Below, piece after piece: positions 4,344 through 34,321 of a DNA stretch of 64,000 nucleotides. The position numbers and the translations under genes are program-made. The DNA comes from an uncultured Paracoccaceae bacterium (GTDB lineage: Bacteria; Pseudomonadota; Alphaproteobacteria; Rhodobacterales; Rhodobacteraceae). The first letter of the stretch is position 1, and each line of letters opens with the position of its first letter. The stretch covers positions 1 to 64,000 of the forward strand of contig CANMDF010000005.1 in NCBI GenBank assembly GCA_947496605.1. Reading direction: 5' to 3'. The notes under the pieces were generated by a model. The model worked only from the letters and a program-made list of their open reading frames with translations. It was not told the DNA's origin and did no database searches.

Positions 4344-4544
4344 CTATTCGGTGACTTCGCCCTTGTTTGGCTGGAAGGCCACCAGTTCGGTGACACCAAC
4401 GGGAAAATCGAGCTTCAGGGTGAGGAAGGTCTCGCCTGTGTCCCGTTTTGTGTTCTCGAACACTGCGCCAACCCGGCGGTAAGTTGTCTTTTCCGTGCCG
4501 TTGTCCTCGTACTTTACAGGAACGGTGAGCGTGTAATGTGTCAT
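4344..4544 (-). CDS. Small conserved plasmid protein (66 aa), paralogue of 22296-22511
   Basis: The ORF track starts this frame far upstream, but AACAAGGAGA sits just before an ATG at 4544, giving a 66-residue product. It is clearly paralogous to the 71-residue product at 22296: both share TYRRVGAVFENT / SFRRVGAVFENT and LKLDFPV.VTELVAF. Both also lie behind the same structured leader. The composition suggests a small beta-rich cytosolic protein with no signal peptide. The function is unknown; the DUF736 gene behind a third copy of the leader suggests a related regulatory class. Confidence 0.8.
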   Translation of the reverse strand: MTHYTLTVPVKYEDNGTEKTTYRRVGAVFENTKRDTGETFLTLKLDFPVGVTELVAFQPNKGEVTE

Positions 4545-4650
4545 TGGGTTTCTCCTTGTTTCGATGAAGGTGAACAAACGCATCGAACGAGGGTGCGGCG
4601 CAGGCTGAAAATCGGAGGCTCCCCCGGAAACCGTTTTTCTGCTTGCCGTG
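4545..4650 (-). promoter_or_regulatory. Type-1 structured leader, copy 1
   Basis: Read on the minus strand, GGCAAGCAGAAAAACGG pairs with ..TTTTCAGCCTGC across an inner GC hairpin, followed by CATCGAAACAAGGAGA directly before the ATG. The same arrangement precedes 19507 (DUF736) and 22296 (paralogue). The distance between hairpin and ribosome site varies slightly, while the ends are strongly conserved. It may be a 5'-UTR regulatory element or a single-strand-active promoter. Confidence 0.65.
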
Positions 4651-4944
4651 GCACTACCACGGGTACGCCAAACCCGCGATGCGTCACCTCCATCTTTCCA
4701 GAAACAAGGAGAGCAAAACCCAAGGCTCCTACACGCCGGTCTCTGCCCAAGTTCGACATCGGCAAGAAGAGACATCGGTGATCCCGCAGGTGGCGCGGGA
4801 TCGAGGATGATGGGGACGTCGCGCCTTCCGCTCCGCTCTAGGCACGACGACGACTTTTCCATTGGTGTTGTCCGCCCAACAGACCTGGCCTGCCCAGTAA
4901 ATCGGCAAGCGCCCGACTAAAGCCGGTCGTCTCATGGCAGGGCC

Positions 4945-18912: not shown

Positions 18913-19400
18913 CTTAGCTGCTCACTCATCCCTGCACAGGGAACTGACACATCTTCCAGTTCAGCATTGGCTGATGTGACGACCCAAGCTTCATATCACC
19001 TTGCCGAAGGGTCCAAAATCGCTGTCCTCGTCTTTTCTGCTCCATTGCAGTTACTTGCTACTGGACCTGTTCAATCAAAGCCATGCTCTTGCCGATCACC
19101 AGTTTGGCCGTCAGCTCCGGTCTTGGCCTGACACAGACTGCTGGTCACTTGGGCCGTGGTGTCCAAAGCGCCGTGCAAGGCCCTTTTTTCTTGAGGGGGC
19201 GAGCGATCGATCTCAAAGACGTTGCGGCTGGTCTGCGATCTCAGTGAAAGCGCTAGTCCGTCAGCATGATTTGTCAGATCACCACCGGTCTACCCCCTGG
19301 TTTCTCTTAGATGGGGATGAAGGGAACGCCGAACGTATGTACCTTCAGCTCGTCCATCGTGATCCCCGCCTCTGGCGCAGATCAAGAGACCCCTTTGGAG
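18913..19400. other. Gene-free stretch
   Basis: About 490 bases between the HEPN-like gene and the type-1 leader. The track's 194-residue frame here reads through the leader and into DUF736 out of frame, so it is rejected. Nothing else is recognised. Confidence 0.45.
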
Positions 19401-19506
19401 CTTCAGCAAGCAGAAAAACGGTTTCCGGAGGACCCTCCGTTTTTCAGCCTGCACACGTCCCGCGCACCCTTCCTGCTTATCCCCATCGAAACAAGGAGAT
19501 AGACCA
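19401..19506 (+). promoter_or_regulatory. Type-1 structured leader, copy 2
   Basis: CTTCAGCAAGCAGAAAAACG opens a hairpin whose 3' arm is CCGTTTTTCAGCCTGC. Inside it CGGAGG-AC-CCTCCG forms a second perfect hairpin. CATCGAAACAAGGAGA then precedes the DUF736 ATG. This is the most regular of the copies (others at 4545-4650, 22181-22295, and a variant at 28222-28271). Confidence 0.68.
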
Positions 19507-19827
19507 ATGGCAATCGATGGAAAAATCACGCGCACTGACGACGACGCATTCACTGGCTGGATCGCATCACTCACCTTCGACGTAGACATCGTTCTTACGA
19601 AGAACCCTCACAAGAAAAAAGAAACGCACCCAGACTTCGAGATCACCACGCGCACCCCTCGCAACCGCCTGATCCGTATCGGATCGGCCTGGGAGCAGAC
19701 CAGCCAAGCGGGCAACGACTACCTCTCGCTGGCCTTTGATGTGAACGGCACCAAGGTTCGCGTCAACGCCCTGCAAGGCGAAGGCAGTGAAGATGGCGAA
19801 TATCGCCTGGTTCCGCTGGCAGGCTAA
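19507..19827 (+). CDS. DUF736 family protein
   Basis: This 106-residue protein carries the DUF736 features I recall (FTGWI.SLTFD.DI.L..NP, DFEI....NR.IRIGSAWEQTS.AG.DYLSLAFD). The family is almost confined to alphaproteobacterial plasmids and integrative elements, and its function is unknown. AAGGAG lies 7 bases before the ATG. It sits behind the type-1 leader shared with two small paralogues, which suggests common regulation. It has no signal peptide or membrane segment. Confidence 0.88.
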   Translation: MAIDGKITRTDDDAFTGWIASLTFDVDIVLTKNPHKKKETHPDFEITTRTPRNRLIRIGSAWEQTSQAGNDYLSLAFDVNGTKVRVNALQGEGSEDGEYRLVPLAG

Positions 19828-22030: not shown

Positions 22031-22180
22031 CGATCGCGCGAGCTGTCATGTCTTTGCCGTTTTGAAAAAACTGACAGGAAGTTCCGGTGTGGATGATTTG
22101 GTCGTCGCCGTTTCGAGCCGCCTTGTTTCTTGTCGATGAATGGGTTGCAGATCTCGGCCGATCACGTTCCCTGCGCTGCG

Positions 22181-22295
22181 CTTCGGCAAGCAGAAATACG
22201 GTTTCCACCCAAGGGCGGACCCTCCGCATTTCCGCCTGCGTGATCCTCCTTAACCGATCCGCTGAGTAACCCTCATCGAAACAAGGAGATCGAAA
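22181..22295 (+). promoter_or_regulatory. Type-1 structured leader, copy 3
   Basis: CTTCGGCAAGCAGAAATACG, the 3' arm CCGCATTTCCGCCTGC and the distal CATCGAAACAAGGAGA match the copies at 4545-4650 and 19401-19506. The inner hairpin is GCGGA-CCC-TCCGC, different in sequence but alike in form to the other copies. Confidence 0.66.
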
Positions 22296-22511
22296 ATGTC
22301 TAACAAAATGTTCACCCTCACTGTTCCCGTCACGTTCAAAAAAGATGGCAAAGACCAAACCAGCTTCCGCCGCGTCGGCGCCGTCTTCGAAAACACCCGC
22401 GACAACGGCGAGCCGTTCCTCTCCATCAAGCTCGACTTCCCAGTAGCGGTCACTGAGCTGGTCGCCTTCCCACCAAAAGCAGATGGCGATGATGGCGACG
22501 TCACAGAATAA
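22296..22511 (+). CDS. Small conserved plasmid protein (71 aa), paralogue of 4344-4544
   Basis: The start is fixed by AAGGAG 8 bases upstream. The protein MSNKMFTLTVPVTFKKDGKDQ... shares most of its length with the 66-residue product at 4344 (FRRVGAVFENT, LKLDFPVAVTELVAFPP) and ends in an acidic tail. Two diverged copies in one window, both with the same leader, suggest duplication followed by parallel regulation. It is likely cytosolic. The function is unknown. A strong terminator follows. Confidence 0.82.
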   Translation: MSNKMFTLTVPVTFKKDGKDQTSFRRVGAVFENTRDNGEPFLSIKLDFPVAVTELVAFPPKADGDDGDVTE

Positions 22512-23368: not shown

Positions 23369-23962
23369 ATGGATACCCAGATCACAGCCACCGTCACCCT
23401 CAACTTTGATATCCCCGAAGGATTGGACGCCCAAGTTCAACGCGCCCGGATCGAAGACGATCTGGGGCGGCTCTATGACGCCGACAGCATAACCGGCATT
23501 GCATGCACTGGCTTTGAGGTCGACGCAATCAAGCACTTGCCGACATCACGCATCCACTTTCTATGTGCGGGCTGCGGATCGCCAGACGTTCGCGCCGATG
23601 CCTACGCCGCTTGGGACGTCGAAGCCGGTCTATGGGTCATGCATTCGGTCTATGACGAGAAATCCTGCGAAAAGTGCGGCTCAAGCTGCAGCCTGATCGA
23701 AGTTGACGAAGCGACAGGCTTGGAAATTCGGGCCTTTGCTATGGTCAACGATGAACACGGATCGCGACAGGCCCAAGAGGGTGAAACGCCTGCGTCTTAC
23801 GACGTGATGGTGACGACCAATCCCACCTCAGACGGTGAGATTCACACCTTGCACGAATTGGACGACCTGAACCACGCACAGATGCAAAAGGCCATCGCCG
23901 TGATGCAGGACACATACCCATTGGCCCCTGTCACCTGTCATTTTTGGGAGGAAGTGCAATGA
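23369..23962 (+). CDS. Hypothetical protein with paired CxxC motifs
   Basis: This 197-residue protein begins 3 bases after the preceding stop and overlaps the next gene by 4 bases, so it is in the middle of a three-gene operon. FLCAGCGSPDVRADAYAAWD...SCEKCGSSCSLIEV forms two CxxC knuckles typical of a zinc ribbon. The N-terminus is beta-rich (TATVTLNFDIPEGLDAQVQRARIEDDL), similar to plasmid proteins with no known role. Nucleic-acid or protein binding is likely, but the function is unknown. Confidence 0.72.
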   Translation: MDTQITATVTLNFDIPEGLDAQVQRARIEDDLGRLYDADSITGIACTGFEVDAIKHLPTSRIHFLCAGCGSPDVRADAYAAWDVEAGLWVMHSVYDEKSCEKCGSSCSLIEVDEATGLEIRAFAMVNDEHGSRQAQEGETPASYDVMVTTNPTSDGEIHTLHELDDLNHAQMQKAIAVMQDTYPLAPVTCHFWEEVQ

Positions 23963-25425
23963 ATGTGCAGAATCCTGAAATCCTTAGCGACGACGAGCTG
24001 ACCGTACCGCAGTTGCCCGCGCTCAAGACCGAAATCCGCGCCATCGTTGATGCCAGAGATGCCGCAATTGCCAAGATTATTGAAGCTGCCGAAACGTTGG
24101 AAAATGCCTATGCCTTATCCAAGGAGGCGGAACGGCTGGCCGCAAAAGCCCATATGGGCCGCAAGTTCTATGGGCTGGACCGATCCGAGCGCGGCGACTT
24201 CAAAGCTCTATTCCGCGACGGCTTTGATCTGGAAGCCTCCGTTGAGACCTACCGCCAACAAGTGGATGCCTCGATCTGGACCTATCTCTTGGAACATACA
24301 GGCATGACCGAAATGATGGATGTGACAGCTGCCCGCGCCTTTGAACAAGACCTGCGCGACGGGGTGCAGCCGGTTACCATGGAAACGCTACGCGCGACCT
24401 TTGCCGATCTGATGGGCAACGCCGATCTGATCTTTGCCCGAGGCCTTGCCACGGCCTTTTCCAAGCTGGACGCGCGATTCAAAAGCCATGATGCATTCAA
24501 GCTGGGTAGCCGCATGATCCTGACACGTGTGTTTAGCGAGTTTTCGGGCAGTTTCAGTTATTCCGGCTGGGAACGCGAAACCATCATCGATATAGAGCGC
24601 GTCTTCGCCAAGCTTGATGGCATGAAGGCAAATGGCGGAATGCTGATGCAGGCGATTGAAGACTCACGGCGCGGCGGCGGCTACGGTCCAAAGCAATCGC
24701 TCACCGAAAGCACCTATTTCCGCATTCGTGGCTTCAAAAACGGCAATGCGCATTTGTGGTTCACCCGCGATGATCTTGTCGAGAAGGCCAACAAGGTTCT
24801 GGCGGACTTTTGCGGCGAGGTCATCCCAGACGCGGCCCCTGCTGATATGGATGGCGAGGCGTTCCGGTCAGGGTCAAACCTGCCCGCGAAAGACCTGCAG
24901 TTCTATCACTCGCCCGAGGGTGTCACTGACCGCTTGTTGAGTGATCTCTATTTGGCGGAGGGCGCACATGTGCTGGAGCCAAGTGCCGGGACGGGTCATA
25001 TCGTCCGCGCACTTCTGGCCAAAAAACCGGATGTGAAGGTCACAGCCGTTGAGCTTCACCCCGACCGTGCGAACCAATTGCGCAAGCTTGAAGGCCGCAA
25101 CGTTCAGATTGTCGCGCGGAATTTCCTCAATGAACCCACTTTCCCCGTCTATGACGCAGTGGTGATGAACCCGCCATTTTATGGCACCCATTGGATGGAT
25201 CACATCCGCCATGCTTGGGATTTCGCCAAAGACGGTGGCAAACTGGTCGCTGTTTTGCCGGTGAGTGCATCCGTCTCCGACACGCCCAGGCATTTGGCCT
25301 TCCGCCGATGGGCCGAGCGCGTCAATGGCGGACGCACTTGGGGGATGTTTACTGATCTTCCACCTGAGAGCTTCGCCGAATGTGGCACCCGTATTAACAC
25401 CGTCATCCTGACTTTGCGGAAATGA
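23959..25425 (+). CDS. DUF4942 protein with class I methyltransferase domain
   Basis: This 488-residue protein starts at ATG 23959 (GGGAGGAAG upstream; overlaps the previous gene by 4 bases). Residues ~1-270 match the DUF4942 type (helical, with a central RGFKNGNAHLWF). From ~315 a SAM-dependent methyltransferase follows: motif I VLEPSAGTGHIVRAL and catalytic VVMNPPFYGTHW, the NPPF form of N6-adenine methyltransferases, then VAVLPVSASV. No restriction partner is seen, so it is probably an orphan methyltransferase. It may mask plasmid DNA from host restriction, in keeping with the neighbouring ArdC. Confidence 0.83.
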   Translation: MNVQNPEILSDDELTVPQLPALKTEIRAIVDARDAAIAKIIEAAETLENAYALSKEAERLAAKAHMGRKFYGLDRSERGDFKALFRDGFDLEASVETYRQQVDASIWTYLLEHTGMTEMMDVTAARAFEQDLRDGVQPVTMETLRATFADLMGNADLIFARGLATAFSKLDARFKSHDAFKLGSRMILTRVFSEFSGSFSYSGWERETIIDIERVFAKLDGMKANGGMLMQAIEDSRRGGGYGPKQSLTESTYFRIRGFKNGNAHLWFTRDDLVEKANKVLADFCGEVIPDAAPADMDGEAFRSGSNLPAKDLQFYHSPEGVTDRLLSDLYLAEGAHVLEPSAGTGHIVRALLAKKPDVKVTAVELHPDRANQLRKLEGRNVQIVARNFLNEPTFPVYDAVVMNPPFYGTHWMDHIRHAWDFAKDGGKLVAVLPVSASVSDTPRHLAFRRWAERVNGGRTWGMFTDLPPESFAECGTRINTVILTLRK

Positions 25426-26274
25426 CATCGGGGGCGTTGCTTTATGCTGCGTCCCCTGCCCTCTTTGGTAGTCTGTCCTGGCTCCGGCACTTCGGCCAAA
25501 CCCAGGACAGACGTTGCGCTGTTCGCGCGGAAGTTTGGCCAGACGGTAGCTTGCCTGGGCCTTCGCATCGAGGAGTCCGCCTCATGACGATCAAGATCGC
25601 ATCCCTCATTCATCTTGCCAAAAATATCCTCGGGGGAACGCCCGTAGGGCGTGGGGGCCGACAGCCCCCTGCTACCTATACGGCCCGCGGTACGGTTCAC
25701 CGACAAGCTGGATGTGTGGGCATCCCAAAACGAAACTGGTCGCTGCATGAAGTGAGCGAAAGTAGATGCAGTGTGCTTTGTTCGTCGACCAAAGTGTATG
25801 CGGCCTGCTGGCATAGTTTCCCGTGCCGACATGACGTTGCAGCCACTGTCGGGTCAGCTCGTTTGTGGCGGGATCAGCGCGCACACTGATACGAACCGGG
25901 AATTCCCGGTCCATGATATCGTAACGATGTGGTGACTTACTACCCATGACAAAGAACATAAGCAGAACATAGCAGGCTGATCCAGAGGGTGAGGCCCTCT
26001 GCGATTAGGAATTTCCTGGTCCCTTGGGGTTCGGACAAGCCGAACGCCACTACGGGACGTTTGCGGCATGGATGCCGCCGACAGCAAGCAAAATAGACAT
26101 TCCCGTGTTGGCGGTTACTCCGCCTGCCCGCGCCAGTCATGTCGATTTAGCTCGCCGTCTCCCAATCCTTTCTTTCATCGCATTCGAGGTTTCAGGATCA
26201 GGCGCATTCGCGCTGTCCCTCAACCCCGACCCATTGGGTGGCAGACCCAAGCGACACCACAAAGGAGACCCGTC
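25426..26274. other. Long gene-free stretch containing repeat copy B
   Basis: About 850 bases without a convincing gene. The track frames here have shadow-like composition. Positions 25608-25670 carry copy B of the dispersed CCAAAAATATCCTCGGGGGA repeat found at 4241-4303. The last ~100 bases before ardC contain CACCACAAAGGAG, resembling the ends of the type-2 leaders, but the rest of that leader is missing. Confidence 0.5.
25608..25670. repeat. Dispersed intergenic repeat, copy B
   Basis: Matches 4241-4303: ATTCATCTTGCCAAAAATAT, then CCTCGGGGGA, a GCCC..AGGGC hairpin and GGGGGC...GCCCCC. It lies downstream of the DUF4942 gene, as copy A lies downstream of ietS. Confidence 0.62.
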
Positions 26275-27174
26275 ATGGCAAAATTTGATGTCTATGAGGA
26301 AGTAACAAATCAGATCATCGCAGCGCTAGAACAAGGCGTGAAACCGTGGGAATGCCCGTGGCAGAGAAACGCGGCAGCCCTTCCATTGCGTGTCACAGGA
26401 GAAAGCTATCGGGGGATCAATCATATTCTTCTGAACCTCAAGGCATGGGCGCAAGGGTATCGGAATCCAGTGTGGATGACGTTCAAACAAGCAAAGGGTT
26501 TGGGCGGGATGGTACGCAAAGGCGAGAAGTCATCGCTTGTCGTGAAGTATGGCACGTTCGAAGCAAAGGACGAAGCGCCGGAAGGTGAGACCGACGCCAA
26601 GATGCGGGGATATCTGAAAGCCTATCGCGTGTTCAACGTGCAGCAAATTGACGGGCTAGAGGAGCAGTTTCCGACGCCTGATGAGGCCAAGCCTTTGGCA
26701 ACGCGGCCTATCGAACAGCTTTCGCACATCGCGGCGGACGTGATCGAGAAAATGGGTGTGGGCTACGCGGAAGGCGGGGACCGCGCGTGCTATGTCCCGT
26801 CTTTGGACAAGGTTCACATGCCTGAGTTGTCGAAATTCAAGGGCGCGGAGTTGTTCTATTCAACCCTGTTTCACGAGTTGTCCCATGCGACTGGCCACAA
26901 GCGCCGATGCGACCGGACGAAGGAAAAAGCCGGGTCGAAGTTTGGGAACGCTGTCTATGCGATGGAAGAGCTTGTGGCTGAGATATCGGCAGCAATGATG
27001 GGGGCGCAGCTTGGCTTTCAACCCGCTCACATTGAAGACAGCGCGTCCTATGTTCAGTCATGGCTGACGGTCTTGCGGGATGACAAGCGCGCCATTGTCA
27101 AAGCGGCAGCAGCGGCACAGCGCTCCGCCGATTATCTCATGTCGAAATCAGGAGAGGTTGTAGAGGCCGCGTAG
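26275..27174 (+). CDS. ardC: ArdC family antirestriction protein
   Basis: The 299-residue protein starts at ATG 26275 (AAAGGAG, 8 bases upstream), and the longer track start is rejected. The N-terminal ssDNA-binding ArdC domain is clear (YEEVTNQIIAALEQGVKPWECPW, ..SYRGINHILL, NPVWMTFKQAKGLGG.VRKGEK). The C-terminal metalloprotease-like domain has FHELSHATGH and the later Glu in MEELVAEISA. ArdC protects entering plasmid DNA against type I restriction. Its length is normal. It sits with other leading-region-type genes and is probably expressed early after transfer. Confidence 0.93.
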   Translation: MAKFDVYEEVTNQIIAALEQGVKPWECPWQRNAAALPLRVTGESYRGINHILLNLKAWAQGYRNPVWMTFKQAKGLGGMVRKGEKSSLVVKYGTFEAKDEAPEGETDAKMRGYLKAYRVFNVQQIDGLEEQFPTPDEAKPLATRPIEQLSHIAADVIEKMGVGYAEGGDRACYVPSLDKVHMPELSKFKGAELFYSTLFHELSHATGHKRRCDRTKEKAGSKFGNAVYAMEELVAEISAAMMGAQLGFQPAHIEDSASYVQSWLTVLRDDKRAIVKAAAAAQRSADYLMSKSGEVVEAA

Positions 27175-28059: not shown

Positions 28060-28119
28060 CCTGTGTCCCTCTATGAGGCGTTTCAGAGGGGCCTGACTCC
28101 GCCAGTGGCGAAGTCTCCG

Positions 28120-28167
28120 CTGCTTTGTCCAGCCGAATGGCCCATGCCATTCGGCTGGACAAAGCAG
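28120..28167. repeat. Perfect 22-bp inverted repeat
   Basis: The left arm 28120-28141 (CTGCTTTGTCC...GAATGGC) and right arm 28146-28167 are exact reverse complements around a CCAT loop. No T-run flanks it. It sits in the leader of the small genes at 27.7-28.1 kb. The unusual length and perfection suggest a selected structure, such as a cruciform, a single-strand initiation site or an RNA stem. Confidence 0.8.
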
Positions 28168-28221
28168 AGAGGGCGCAGCCCGTCCTGCGGCCGGAACCGG
28201 ATTGAAGACAGGGGGCCGGAG

Positions 28222-28271
28222 GGCTGAAAATTGGGGGGACCGCGCGCAGCGTGGGGGTGCCGATTTTCTGC
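28222..28271 (-). promoter_or_regulatory. Variant of the type-1 leader hairpin
   Basis: On the minus strand GCAGAAAATCGG ... CCAATTTTCAGCC repeats the outer stem of the type-1 leaders (GCAGAAAAACGG ... CCGTTTTTCAGCC). The inner part is different and it is about 160 bases further from the next start (28059). It is a likely diverged member of the family. Confidence 0.45.
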
Positions 28272-28454
28272 GTGGAGGCTGGCGCGTTCGCGCGACATCA
28301 CAACCCCTGTTGAAAGCCGGGGCCGGATGGCAGGCGGATCGTAAAGCAGATCAATGCCGACGCGCCTAGAGCGAAGCGGAGGGGGCGTTGTCCCCTGCTC
28401 CAATCAATCCCGCCTATTGCGGGATTTCTCTGGTCTTAATGCGTTGGAGTTCAG

Positions 28455-29872: not shown

Positions 29873-29882
29873 TCTTCTGCTC

Positions 29883-30150
29883 TCTCGTGTGTTGCGTGTC
29901 GCTTTTCGCGTGTCGCTTTGATTTTGTTATTGTTCGCGTTCTGCTTGTCACATGACGCGTGTCGCGTGTCAATTATCGCTGGCCGCCTGTCGCGTGTCCT
30001 TTGTCCATGATGCGTGTTGCGTGTCGCGTGATAGAATATGCGTATTGCGTGACGCGTGCTCAGAACAGCGTGTCGCGTGGAAGGGGCTACTTCTCGCGTA
30101 TCAATGTTCGCTTGTTGCGTGACGGAGACCGCGTGTCGCGTGTTGAATGT
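29883..30150. repeat. Degenerate GCGTGTC heptad array, candidate centromere
   Basis: More than a dozen copies of GCGTGTC and close variants (GCGTGTT, GCGTGAC, GCGTGAT) occur in ~270 bases, often as tandem pairs such as GCGTGTCGCGTGTC, separated by short AT-rich spacers. The array lies directly upstream of the ParA operon. Heptad arrays before small ParA genes typically bind a ribbon-helix-helix partner and serve as both centromere and operator. The minus-strand 115-residue frame through it (many TRHA repeats) is an artefact. Confidence 0.72.
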
Positions 30151-30185
30151 CGAGTGGGGCTCAGAGGTGTATTTATCATCCGATA

Positions 30186-30430
30186 GGAGGGGACGGATCA
30201 ACTGCGCGGACTCGAACGACTGCGTAGCGCCACGGAGAGGGGTGCTACAGCGTCATCTCGCAAAAATATGGGGAGCGGTAGCCCTCAGGCTGTTGCGGTC
30301 CTACAGGGAGCGATTTTCAAAGCTTAGGATCACGCGAGTTTGGCTGGCTGGCAAGTTTCTACATCTGTGGCCTCGGTTTTGCAAACCTCGGCGAGAAACG
30401 GAATACATACCTCAATTCAAACAAAACAGC
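30186..30430. other. oriT: Probable oriT-containing intergenic region
   Basis: This is the only gene-free DNA between the ParA operon and mobC/relaxase, where oriT is expected. Short inverted repeats are visible (AGCC-CTCA-GGCT around 30273; GGTTT-TGC-AAACC around 30378). I could not identify a nic site, so the call rests on position. Confidence 0.4.
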
Positions 30431-30462: not shown

Positions 30463-30507
30463 TTCGGTATGTATGAGGATGGCAGGAAATAGGGGTTCTT
30501 TGTTCGT

Positions 30508-31080
30508 ATGCCTAAAGGACGAATTCTAACACCAAACGAGCGCCTGGTGATAGTGCGTGAGGCGTCGAAAGGTGCTGACGTGAAAGGGCTTGCCCTGCGA
30601 TTTGGGGTCACGCGGCGAACGATCCACTATACAATCAAGCGCGAAAAAGATCGGCGTCGGGACACTGGGATAAGAACTGCCGCCGCAAGCGTAACGGTGA
30701 CACCAGACGAGATGGACGCGTTTGATCTGGCGATTTCAAAACATGGATTTGGCAGTCGGGCAGACGCATTGCGGGCGCTGATGCAGGCGACGAATGGCAT
30801 TTTCGTCCCCGATGATCACCTGTCTGGCGAGCTGGCCGGGTTCCGTGCCGCCCTAAATCGTGTTGGTAACAACATCACCCAGATTGCGAGGCGGATGAAC
30901 GAAGCAAAAAAGCGCGGTATGCCTGCGCCGTGGTCGGACAGGCAGTACGAGGAAATCAGGGCGCTCGCAGGTCTGATTTTGGAGATGGGGGATCAAGCTG
31001 ATTTACTCATCAAACGGCGCAAGGATGCCATGACGGTGACGGTGAACGAGGTGTTGAGGGAGTTTGCTCTTGGCACGTAA
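30508..31080 (+). CDS. mobC: Relaxosome accessory protein MobC/VirD1-like
   Basis: This 190-residue protein has an N-terminal helix-turn-helix (ERLVIVREASKGADVKGLALRFGVTRRTIHYTIK). It is followed by the MobC-type region (SVTVTPDEMDAFDLAISKHGFGSRADALRALM..., LAGFRAALNRVGNNITQIARRMNEA), the block that helps the relaxase melt oriT. The C-terminus overlaps the relaxase start. The extra HTH is unusual for MobC and makes it a candidate for binding its own promoter dyad, although no direct evidence shows this. Confidence 0.83.
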   Translation: MPKGRILTPNERLVIVREASKGADVKGLALRFGVTRRTIHYTIKREKDRRRDTGIRTAAASVTVTPDEMDAFDLAISKHGFGSRADALRALMQATNGIFVPDDHLSGELAGFRAALNRVGNNITQIARRMNEAKKRGMPAPWSDRQYEEIRALAGLILEMGDQADLLIKRRKDAMTVTVNEVLREFALGT

Positions 31081-34000
31081 TAACGCCGTCGAGGCTGTCA
31101 CAGGTGAGGTGTTCCGGGAGGGATGGGACCGTGTTCGCGGTTCTATGCAAGGTCTCAACAGTAAGAAGCACGGACAACTCTATCGCGCTGCACGCGGTCA
31201 TCGTTCGGCGGTGTTCAAGGCCATCAAGAACGGCGGGACGCACACGAAGGGCCAGCTCAGCAATCAGCTTTCCTATATCACGCGCGATCATAAGCTGGCG
31301 CATTTCGTGGATAGTCGTGGCACATTCGATGGCAAGACGAAGTTCGATGACAAAGTCATCAAGAAGATCACGGATCGATTTGCCGAGCGTTGGGACAGTG
31401 GTTTCCGCCCGAAGATGGGCAACACCACGCACATGCTCATGTCGTTTCCGAAAGGTACGAAGTCGGAGGACGTGAGAGACATCGCGTCTGACGTATGTGA
31501 GCGGTTCTTTGAAACCTATGATGGCCACTTCGATTATGTGATTGCCGTCCACAAGGATCGGGATCATCCGCACGCCCACATCGTCTTGAACAGACGGTCC
31601 CAGGAGGGTGAGTTTTTCTATCTGGGTCGTGATCATCGGTTCAATTACGACGATTTTCGCTTCGCAATGGTGGAAGAGGCCGAGAAGTACAGTGTGAAGC
31701 TGGAAGCGACGCGGCGGGTTGATCGCGGTCTTGTCCATTATCCGCCCAGGACGCGGGAAATCTACGCGGTCAAGCAAGACGCTGAAAACGGTGCGATGCG
31801 CGAACCCGAACAGAGAGAGCGGGTAGGGCGCGATCTGGCACGAACAGTGGCAGAGATTGCCAGCACGAGACTTGTCTATCACTCGCTCGCTGCGGAGGCC
31901 TCAACCGACAGCCGAGAAGAAATTTCCGAGGCCCTTCTGAAAGCGGCAGAGCTTTTGGGCAAGGGAACAACCATTCAGCATGATGGAGACATTTACATGG
32001 GAGCCGCCGAGGACTTTGACGATCTGAGAGGGCAATATGCCGAAACCGTTGAGGAAGTGCAGGCCCGCATCGCACGGCTTCCTGAAGGTGAACGGGCGGC
32101 CAATGAACGAAGGCTGAACGACATCCAAGTCGGCCTCCGTCGGATGCAGCCGCTTGGTCTGCGATCTGTGACGCTTGAGCAAAAGCCTTCAGAGGGCGGG
32201 ATTTATTCTGAGACGAATATCAACAGCGAGCTTGTTGGGCGATTGCAGGATGGGAGCACGCGAGCCCAGATTGACAACGCTTTGAGAGGGACCGGGATCA
32301 GGGCTGATACCGTCGTCAACCGCATCGCGACCGGCGCACCAAACGCGGCGCTAGAGCGTCAATGGGTTGCCGATGATCTTGCAAAGGTTGCCGAGGCGCA
32401 GGGTTTGAACCTTGAACGCAAGGACGACTTAGAGGCTGCGCGTGAGCGCTTGAACCAAGTGCATGTAGAGTTAGGCACCGCACTCGAGCGGGCAGAGGTG
32501 CTGCGCGATGACGGCGTGATTGAAGAAACTCGCGAAATCCGCTTCCACTTTGATCAAGAGCGATTGGACGACACGACTCGGGCGGTGCGCCAAGAATTGA
32601 GAGGGCAGGGGGTCAATGAAGCGCAGCTTGACGCCCGTGCCATTGAGATTGAAAACCGGGCGTTTGACCGGGTTAAGGCAGAGCAGCGGGACTATCTCGC
32701 AACGCGGCCTGAAATTCTTTCTGATCCAGGGGCTGTCTACCGCACAGACGAAGAGGGTAGGGGGCGGATCACAGATCGGGAGCTAGCGGATCGGCTTGAT
32801 CGGGAGATAGACGTCATCCTTGACCGTTCGCCCGCCAATCAGAGCATTTCCGAGGCCGTCGCATCCGATTTCAAGGATCGCTACCCCGACATGCCCGATC
32901 ACGTTGCACGAGGCTTGGGCGATACCTACGAGACGAGCTTCCGTTTGAATAATGAGCAGGAGTTGCGCGAGGCAGAGCTTGAAGCCGCCGATGGTGAGAC
33001 TGCACGAGAAGCCGCGCTTGAAGCGAACCGGAATGACAATGGGATCGCGCAGACTGAAGCCGATGGTATCTCGTCAGCTGATAGGCGTGAGTTCGATGAA
33101 CTCGAACGTCAGTTTGCGCTCACAGATTTCAATTATCCCTATTCGGATGACCCGAACGCGCGTGATGTAGGGCGCGAACAAGCGCAACGGGCGTCAGATG
33201 CATTTCGCTCGTTTGCGGCGAGGTCGCCACTACACGCAGCTATGGCTTCGAGTGCATGGGATCGCGCAACGGATATTATGCGAGGGCCAGAGGGATATCT
33301 GAGGCAGGAGAAGCGAGAGCCAATTCTGGAACGCGCTGAAGAATGGGAGTTGATGGGAAGACCAATCACTCTGGAGGAGATGGAGCGTGCGATTGAAGAT
33401 GATCGAAATGATGACATCCAATTGGAGTGGCTGCAAAATTCGGGAATTGAACGTGCCGAGCAAGAAGGCATAGCCGCTCAAGAGAGCCGCAACATTCGCG
33501 CGATGGAGATAGACCAAACCAGTCTTGATCGTATGAGTTCGCGGGTGCGTGATGAAATCATGGCTGAAAATGCTGAAACCGAGAGTTTCGATCAACGCTA
33601 TGAGCGTGCGGAAGCCATGGCTGCGAGCGGGGCCATCGAACATACGGCTCGGGCCCGCATTCTGCAAGAGCGTGAAGAATACCTCAGTCAAAGACCGGAG
33701 CTTGCCGCAGAGCGGGTCCTTCCATACTCGGATCTTCCTTTTGGCGCGAAGATCGAGGACCGCGAGCGCGTCGATCAGATCAGTCGCGAAGTGGACCGGG
33801 TTATGGCTGATCGTGACAATCGCGGAGAGGTTTCAACAGCCGTCGCCGATGATTTCCCCGCCCGTTATCCAGACATGCCGAACCATTTGGCCCGTGGCCT
33901 TGGCCGGACTTATGAGGTCGCAAGTGAGGCGCGCGATAGGGAAGCTATTCGTGATTATGAAGAAACCCGCATCGAGAACGAAGAAATCCGGCGCGTGGTT

Positions 34001-34321
34001 GAGCATGAGAGGTCTGACGACGTGTCGCCGTCGCTGGCAACGGACGAGCAGCGTCTCAGCTATCGCGAGCAGGTCGAGAAAGAGCTTGACGATGAGCAGA
34101 TCGAGCGGTTGCGGGAAGGTGACAGCGACGCCTTGGAGAACATGTCTGACGACAGGCTAGACCGTCTCTACGCTGCGAAAGCCTATCTACAATCGGATGC
34201 AGCAACGGCGAACTCTGAAGCCTATCGCGAGGTCGTGGAAGAGATCGCCGAAGAGCAGTATGAGTTGCAACGAGACCGGCTAGTCGACTCTGAACGCGAA
34301 GGAGGGCCGGTCCATGGGTAA
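31070..34321 (+). CDS. VirD2-like relaxase with large repeat-bearing C-terminus
   Basis: The TTG at 31070 is preferred over 31064 because GAGGGAG then lies 7 bases upstream. The N-terminal ~270 residues form the relaxase: YITRD with the likely nicking Tyr, and the metal motif HKDRDHPHAHIVLNRR, closest to VirD2-type enzymes. It nicks oriT and pilots the strand to VirD4. The remaining ~800 residues are helical and highly charged. They hold a duplicated ~85-residue unit (about residues 541-625 and 870-950), each with RYPDMP.H.ARGLG.TYE. At ~1,083 residues it is much longer than Agrobacterium VirD2. It overlaps virD4 by 8 bases. Confidence 0.9.
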   Translation: MARNNAVEAVTGEVFREGWDRVRGSMQGLNSKKHGQLYRAARGHRSAVFKAIKNGGTHTKGQLSNQLSYITRDHKLAHFVDSRGTFDGKTKFDDKVIKKITDRFAERWDSGFRPKMGNTTHMLMSFPKGTKSEDVRDIASDVCERFFETYDGHFDYVIAVHKDRDHPHAHIVLNRRSQEGEFFYLGRDHRFNYDDFRFAMVEEAEKYSVKLEATRRVDRGLVHYPPRTREIYAVKQDAENGAMREPEQRERVGRDLARTVAEIASTRLVYHSLAAEASTDSREEISEALLKAAELLGKGTTIQHDGDIYMGAAEDFDDLRGQYAETVEEVQARIARLPEGERAANERRLNDIQVGLRRMQPLGLRSVTLEQKPSEGGIYSETNINSELVGRLQDGSTRAQIDNALRGTGIRADTVVNRIATGAPNAALERQWVADDLAKVAEAQGLNLERKDDLEAARERLNQVHVELGTALERAEVLRDDGVIEETREIRFHFDQERLDDTTRAVRQELRGQGVNEAQLDARAIEIENRAFDRVKAEQRDYLATRPEILSDPGAVYRTDEEGRGRITDRELADRLDREIDVILDRSPANQSISEAVASDFKDRYPDMPDHVARGLGDTYETSFRLNNEQELREAELEAADGETAREAALEANRNDNGIAQTEADGISSADRREFDELERQFALTDFNYPYSDDPNARDVGREQAQRASDAFRSFAARSPLHAAMASSAWDRATDIMRGPEGYLRQEKREPILERAEEWELMGRPITLEEMERAIEDDRNDDIQLEWLQNSGIERAEQEGIAAQESRNIRAMEIDQTSLDRMSSRVRDEIMAENAETESFDQRYERAEAMAASGAIEHTARARILQEREEYLSQRPELAAERVLPYSDLPFGAKIEDRERVDQISREVDRVMADRDNRGEVSTAVADDFPARYPDMPNHLARGLGRTYEVASEARDREAIRDYEETRIENEEIRRVVEHERSDDVSPSLATDEQRLSYREQVEKELDDEQIERLREGDSDALENMSDDRLDRLYAAKAYLQSDAATANSEAYREVVEEIAEEQYELQRDRLVDSEREGGPVHG

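Follow-up and report, generated by a model that had tools for sequence, protein, structure and literature searches.

Conserved, structured single-stranded DNA serves on the transferred or viral strand as ssi/primosome assembly sites and G4-type primase sites, and control of the FinP/traJ type places a structured nucleic acid opposite a leader with a ribosome-binding site (RBS). In the F plasmid, ssb and psiB are directed toward oriT and tra. Single-strand promoters have been described for F-like and related plasmids (PMC11541004), and Frpo is, as cited in that article, promoter and priming site in one (Masai and Arai 1997, cited in PMC11541004). The 2024 survey (Samuel et al., PMC11541004) looked for relatives of five known sequences and for -35/-10 motifs; because of this basis, it is unlikely to have found the leaders considered here, a hairpin family on conjugative plasmids of marine and soil alphaproteobacteria. 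Searches limited to open-licence full texts gave no account of elements of this kind in alphaproteobacteria, and the family has apparently been undescribed so far.

The DNA analysed here, a stretch of 64 kb in all (the window), is a contig resembling a conjugative plasmid, with genome relatives in Rhodobacterales. It carries genes for a replication protein RPA (at 15.8 kb), a DUF736 protein of 106 aa (19507..19827, plus strand; Pfam PF05284, E 3.6e-15), an SRAP protein (20.7 kb) and a DUF736-like small protein of 71 aa (22296..22511, plus strand; PF05284 E 0.008, below the Pfam cut-off; aligned family A7). These are followed in the same orientation by a DUF4942 protein with a methyltransferase domain (23944..25425, plus strand) and an ArdC-type antirestriction protein (26068..27174, plus strand; PF08401 and PF18818). 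A MobC-like relaxosome protein (30508..31080, plus strand; PF05713 and HTH matches, both weak), a VirD2-like MOBP relaxase (31064..34321, plus strand; NCBIfam VirD2 E 1e-20; PF03432), VirD4 (34.3 kb) and VirB4 (44-47 kb) lie beyond. A second DUF736-like small protein, of 66 aa (4344..4544, minus strand), is a paralogue 60% identical to the 22-kb protein. The 71-aa protein is predicted to be all-beta (pLDDT 81), and its model gave no confident fold match, so that an SSB-like nature of all the downstream proteins is unsupported; the DUF736 model was left unused, its quality being too low (pLDDT 39).

A preliminary description of this DNA had proposed three related structured leaders in front of plasmid genes, and all three are where it put them: the exact sequence GCAAGCAGAAA(A/T)ACGG stands at 4631-4646 (minus), 19406-19421 (plus) and 22186-22201 (plus), and the shared ribosome-site sequence CATCGAAACAAGGAGA at 4551 (minus), 19484 (plus) and 22274 (plus). 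With up to three mismatches allowed, the core matched eight times in the window against 1.3 expected by chance. A covariance model made from sphingomonad SSB leaders only, without any window sequence (R2), picked out over the 64 kb precisely the three leader places (best E 3e-5, 8e-4 and 2e-3) and no further place up to E 5; it matches both strands at each place because the element is a near-palindrome. The element as described was correct as to its core and incomplete beyond it, as the core of about 50 nt forms only the tip of a much longer imperfect hairpin, some 180 nt in length. The extended hairpin of the DUF736 gene spans 19310..19487 (plus strand, 178 nt, core 19404-19455; 65.9 bits with model R1, E 3e-5 with R2), that of the 22-kb gene 22111..22296 (plus strand, 186 nt, core 22184-22242; R1 74.5 bits, together with folds and covariation) and that of the 4.5-kb gene 4543..4724 (minus strand, 182 nt, core 4597-4648; R1 65.0 bits). 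A looser variant that had also been counted in the family, at 28219-28277 (minus), scores 15.9 bits (E 0.07 in the window) beside a chance-level match of 15.4 bits; by its sequence this core-like hairpin is marginal, at noise level, and its membership is not established. Between it and a 55-aa ORF lies a perfect long inverted repeat, TGCTTTGTCCAGCCGAATGGC..GCCATTCGGCTGGACAAAGCA, at 28114-28165. The downstream genes had been read as DUF736 and two paralogous small proteins, in agreement with the PF05284 match and with the paralogy of the 66-aa and 71-aa proteins. That the leaders are recent duplications is not borne out: they are 58-66% identical to one another, and each window leader resembles the one that precedes the orthologous gene in other species.

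For the three window leaders, the coding and the template strand are each predicted to fold as a single hairpin of about 180 nt. Its conserved core reads CAAGCA(G/C)AAA(A/T)ACGG(C/T)TTCC...GGACCCTCCG..TTT..GC(T/C)TGC, and conservation extends to the tip and the internal loops, which are asymmetric. Most leaders hold the ribosome site inside the hairpin: in the small-protein classes it is paired by the hairpin base (GAAACAAGGAG with CTCCTTGTTTC), the stem base of the 22-kb leader pairing the RBS GAAACAAGG, whereas in the DUF736 class, represented by the 19-kb copy, the stem ends just short of the RBS and leaves it unpaired. When twelve diverse leaders are aligned, compensatory changes appear at 13 of the 35 pairs, pairs of the RBS region included, and covariation supports core and hairpin base alike. 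Sphingomonad copies have the core with one additional small hairpin inserted.

The preliminary description had proposed searching plasmids for the leader and its downstream genes, and the same core does recur, before DUF736, DUF736-like and SSB genes; the reuse of one leader before several plasmid genes, noted there within one contig, thus extends to a conserved family found on many plasmids. A blastn search with the window core led to plasmids of Sphingobium, Novosphingobium and Sphingopyxis, where it stands directly before SSB-family genes (PF00436). A pattern scan of 84,980 genomes gave at least 117 stretches, with Rhodobacterales, Sphingomonadales and one Nitratireductor among the matches listed; a loose two-arm regular expression was dropped as a search pattern, being swamped by chance matches, and the core pattern had no match in viral contigs. 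Three kinds of gene follow the core, namely DUF736, small DUF736-like (the 68-aa class being dominant) and SSB; in Rhodobacterales it is the first two. From core to start codon there are about 54-62 nt in most copies that have a recognised gene, up to 68 nt in one sphingomonad subclass and more in the Sphingopyxis DUF736 class. Sphingopyxis granuli pRW412b has two leaders, one before ssb and the other before DUF736. Plasmids of the 68-aa class were predicted to be conjugative in 152 of 161 cases, although counts in this class are not independent, because it is one recently spread lineage. Dinoroseobacter shibae pDSHI03, whose conjugative transfer has been achieved in the laboratory (PMC4886583), carries the leader. 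Of 198 genomes sampled from the taxonomic family, 28 have a match, five of these 28 with the chromosomal kind only; in a sparse class-wide sample, matches were confined to the window's genus, and the range given here is therefore that of the pattern scan.

Several further observations concern the surroundings of these copies. Four sphingomonad plasmids (L010, L011, L168 and L170) share a conserved leading-region block despite otherwise different content, in the order resolvase, hairpin leader, ssb, parA-like, RHH, relaxase. A diverged leader in a genome of a Rhodobacterales family (L175:2252-2307, minus) stands directly before an SSB-like gene (MNTFAEFEIIGRVGQI...) and may connect the rhodobacterial classes with those of sphingomonads. 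The chromosomal kind consists of palindromes of about 190 nt (L179:2955-3020, at G018:C1:635454, and L180, L181, L182 and L183) that have the core tip CGGTTTCC..GGA(C/G)CCTCCG but their own outer arms, CACCAAAGCAGC..GGCTCCGAAGCAGC. One or two occur per genome, between unrelated genes (neighbours include clpA, a class I tRNA synthetase gene and a FabH-like gene), with no obvious downstream gene at these palindromes, and their better fold is on the same strand as that of the leaders.

The position of the leaders relative to the origin of transfer was read from a motif chosen after seeing the data, by comparison of loci: TGGCAGGA lies 5' of mobC and after the 68-aa gene in 72 of 73 loci, and in the reverse orientation in none of the 73. 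We take it to be a form of the VirD2/T-DNA-border nic sites, with cleavage at TCCTG|CCA on the complementary strand. An earlier nic motif with the last base fixed (ATCCTG/CAGGATR) was not found in the 68-aa class. The window copy of TGGCAGGA marks a predicted nic region at 30480..30487 (plus strand), the strand cleaved being the minus strand; upstream of it, at 29880-30200, runs a long series of degenerate GCGTGTCGCGTG-type repeats that differs from the corresponding region in the 68-aa class. In five Sphingobium/Novosphingobium plasmids, GCAGGATA precedes the relaxosome gene in the same orientation. The polarity of the nic motif places the predicted cleaved strand opposite the relaxase gene. 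Transfer is thus predicted, from sequence, to lead away from the relaxase and across the genes of the 68-aa class, DUF736 and SSB, for which the cleaved strand would be the template.

On relaxase-bearing contigs, 26 of 28 elements lie upstream of the relaxase on the same strand and point toward the origin, and the sphingomonad MOBP plasmids and the MOBF plasmid pRW412b have the same orientation and layout. The leaders accordingly stand in the predicted leading region, upstream of genes for which the cleaved strand (T-strand) would be the template, the exception being the 4.5-kb leader. The mixed orientation in the window had been held against a promoter acting on one strand. That objection falls away for the 19-kb and 22-kb leaders, which point toward the predicted nic site at 30480, and stands for the reversed 4.5-kb leader. 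Leaders facing away from the relaxase are this 4.5-kb copy, its orthologue on R. litoralis pROLI83 and one of three in genome G048; an opposite-facing small relative in pGal_E78 has no leader. In these small numbers, the weak strand preference of the 4.5-kb type (see below) and the leaderless pGal_E78 relative are what relaxed selection after inversion would be expected to give.

We then compared the folding of the two strands. With RNA parameters, the template strand is more stable than the coding strand in 77/77, 15/15, 5/5, 6/8 and 4/4 leaders of the five classes, and with DNA parameters in 77/77, 15/15, 4/5, 8/8 and 4/4. RNase P, taken as a control, is reversed, its coding strand folding better in 30/30 cases and its template strand in 0/30. 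Relative to dinucleotide shuffles (DNA parameters; at most eight sequences per leader class and three for RNase P), the mean z of the strand difference is 4.6, 1.8, 0.3, 2.2 and 1.9 by class, against -1.3 for RNase P. The 19-kb leader reaches -45.3 kcal/mol on the template and -37.8 kcal/mol on the coding strand (DNA parameters), and the consensus fold -36.1 against -27.9 kcal/mol; the preference of the 4.5-kb leader type is among the weakest. The better template fold arises in part because the template strand has G-T pairs where the coding strand of the core has conserved A-C mismatches. Mismatch counts in the unaligned arms (A-C in 50 contexts against G-U in 23) are not relied on alone, because the coding strand is C-rich; they and the consensus-pair counts, a weaker trend, are superseded by strand folding with shuffles and the RNase P control. 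A structured RNA leader should fold better on the coding strand than on its complement, and the leaders show the reverse. Since the template preference exceeds composition and is opposite to that of RNase P, it is apparently the complement of the mRNA that is under selection.

These features bring the leaders close to Frpo/ssi of F. Both are long imperfect hairpins in single-stranded DNA, predicted ones in the case of the leaders, upstream of early leading-region genes, ssb included, and in both these genes are directed toward oriT, with the T-strand as template. The neighbours are also alike, as F has antirestriction, ParB-like and SOS genes in its leading region, and the leaders have leading-region genes for ArdC (typical of such regions), a methyltransferase, SRAP and UmuDC-like proteins. 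The two differ in that the hairpin of these leaders is compact, sits immediately before the start codon and often has the RBS within it, whereas about 110 nt separate the F hairpin from ssb; in that the leaders have no recognised -35/-10 and a strong template-strand preference; and in that DUF736 and DUF736-like genes are among the genes downstream. The F-plasmid Frpo, used as a control, has a strong hairpin upstream of ssb without a clear strand preference, so that Frpo cannot be defined by such a preference. Model R1 had no match over 21 kb of leading region from F, nor did blastn of the leaders against E. coli genomes. By analogy, then, the leaders resemble the Frpo/ssi group in how they would work and are not members of it by sequence. 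A simple sigma-70 scan of the 68-aa class gave a good pair ahead of mobC at 65 of 68 loci but none in the leader (0/68); the window copies scan similarly poorly, with one weak pair (9 of 12) upstream of the 22-kb hairpin, and by eye no -35/-10 pair was recognised in the hairpin stem.

The preliminary description had drawn the analogy to single-strand promoters of leading regions, with which position, nic polarity, orientation and template-strand folding all agree. We therefore judge it probable, with appreciable doubt, that the leaders are leading-region single-stranded DNA elements, similar to Frpo/ssi, that turn genes on at entry; they may also form the plasmid-wide regulon, switched on together, that was proposed there. 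In this scheme the relaxase would nick the minus strand at about 30480, the T-strand would enter the recipient 5' end first, and the 22-kb and 19-kb genes would arrive early, as their complementary strand. While single-stranded, the T-strand would form, immediately before each gene, a hairpin of about 180 nt; its conserved tip may be recognised by a factor of the host or the plasmid, and the folded hairpin may be the entry point on the T-strand for RNA polymerase or primase. The downstream DUF736, DUF736-like or, in sphingomonads, SSB gene would be transcribed immediately, toward the nic site. By analogy, RNA polymerase would make mRNA at the hairpin, and possibly primers too. In the double-stranded plasmid the hairpin would be absent and the gene probably quiet, because no ordinary promoter is seen. 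We offer only tentatively a stronger form of the proposal, in which the family is a sequence-unrelated route to expression from single-stranded DNA, with the tip read by an alphaproteobacterial factor otherwise than through sigma-70 -35/-10 contact, in two orders on plasmids, the chromosomal relatives using the same tip for another single-strand function.

The main rival holds that the hairpins are ssi sites for a primosome or primase that prime complementary-strand synthesis on the T-strand, with gene proximity secondary. The strand and position evidence serves it exactly as it serves the promoter reading, Frpo has been cited as both promoter and priming site (Masai and Arai 1997, cited in PMC11541004) and no sigma-70 motif was found in the leaders. 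The chromosomal relatives, lying between genes, indicate that such a fold can occur where no gene follows it, which also counts against the promoter reading. A priming site, however, needs neither the spacing of about 54-62 nt between core and start nor a stem base that reaches the RBS, and plasmids have two or three such leaders each, in front of several types of gene; to our knowledge, ssi and G4-type sites are not placed at start codons, unlike these leaders. We consider this explanation possible but rather unlikely.

The other explanations place function in RNA or in double-stranded DNA. Transcription of the template strand from within the gene, giving a structured antisense RNA that controls the gene's translation, would account for both the template-strand folding preference and the overlap with the RBS. 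It would leave the leading-region position and orientation unexplained, and the sigma-70 scan found antisense promoters within the gene in 0/68 loci against 65/68 at mobC. The sequence has no T-run at the expected 3' end, so that, unlike FinP/traJ, the leaders have neither a detected antisense promoter nor a terminator-like T-run; Rfam 15 covariance models at gathering score had no match in the window, and we regard such an RNA as improbable. An ordinary mRNA 5' leader on the coding strand, acting as an RBS-sequestering switch or attenuator, seems slightly less probable still: the RBS is paired in the coding-strand fold of most classes and the weak 9-of-12 pair lies upstream of the 22-kb copy, but the coding strand folds less well than the template, the DUF736 copy has its RBS unpaired, the best-sampled 68-aa class has no promoter ahead of the left arm and the Rfam search was empty here as well. 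A double-stranded operator or REP-like mobile palindrome without strand-specific function, suggested by the near-palindromic elements, by models that match both strands and by chromosomal relatives at varied intergenic sites, is very improbable given the conserved asymmetry of tip and internal loops, the regular orientation and start-codon spacing, and a strand preference that exceeds composition.

Comparing the folding of the two single strands could reveal such elements where sequence similarity does not. If leading-region elements active on entry are indeed what these leaders are, the establishment genes of the large pool of conjugative plasmids in marine Rhodobacterales and in sphingomonads would be expressed on entry through an element unrelated to those known, and the genes downstream could work before the plasmid becomes double-stranded. 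The leaders would then point to unnamed genes, those for DUF736 and its small relatives, as acting in the first minutes.
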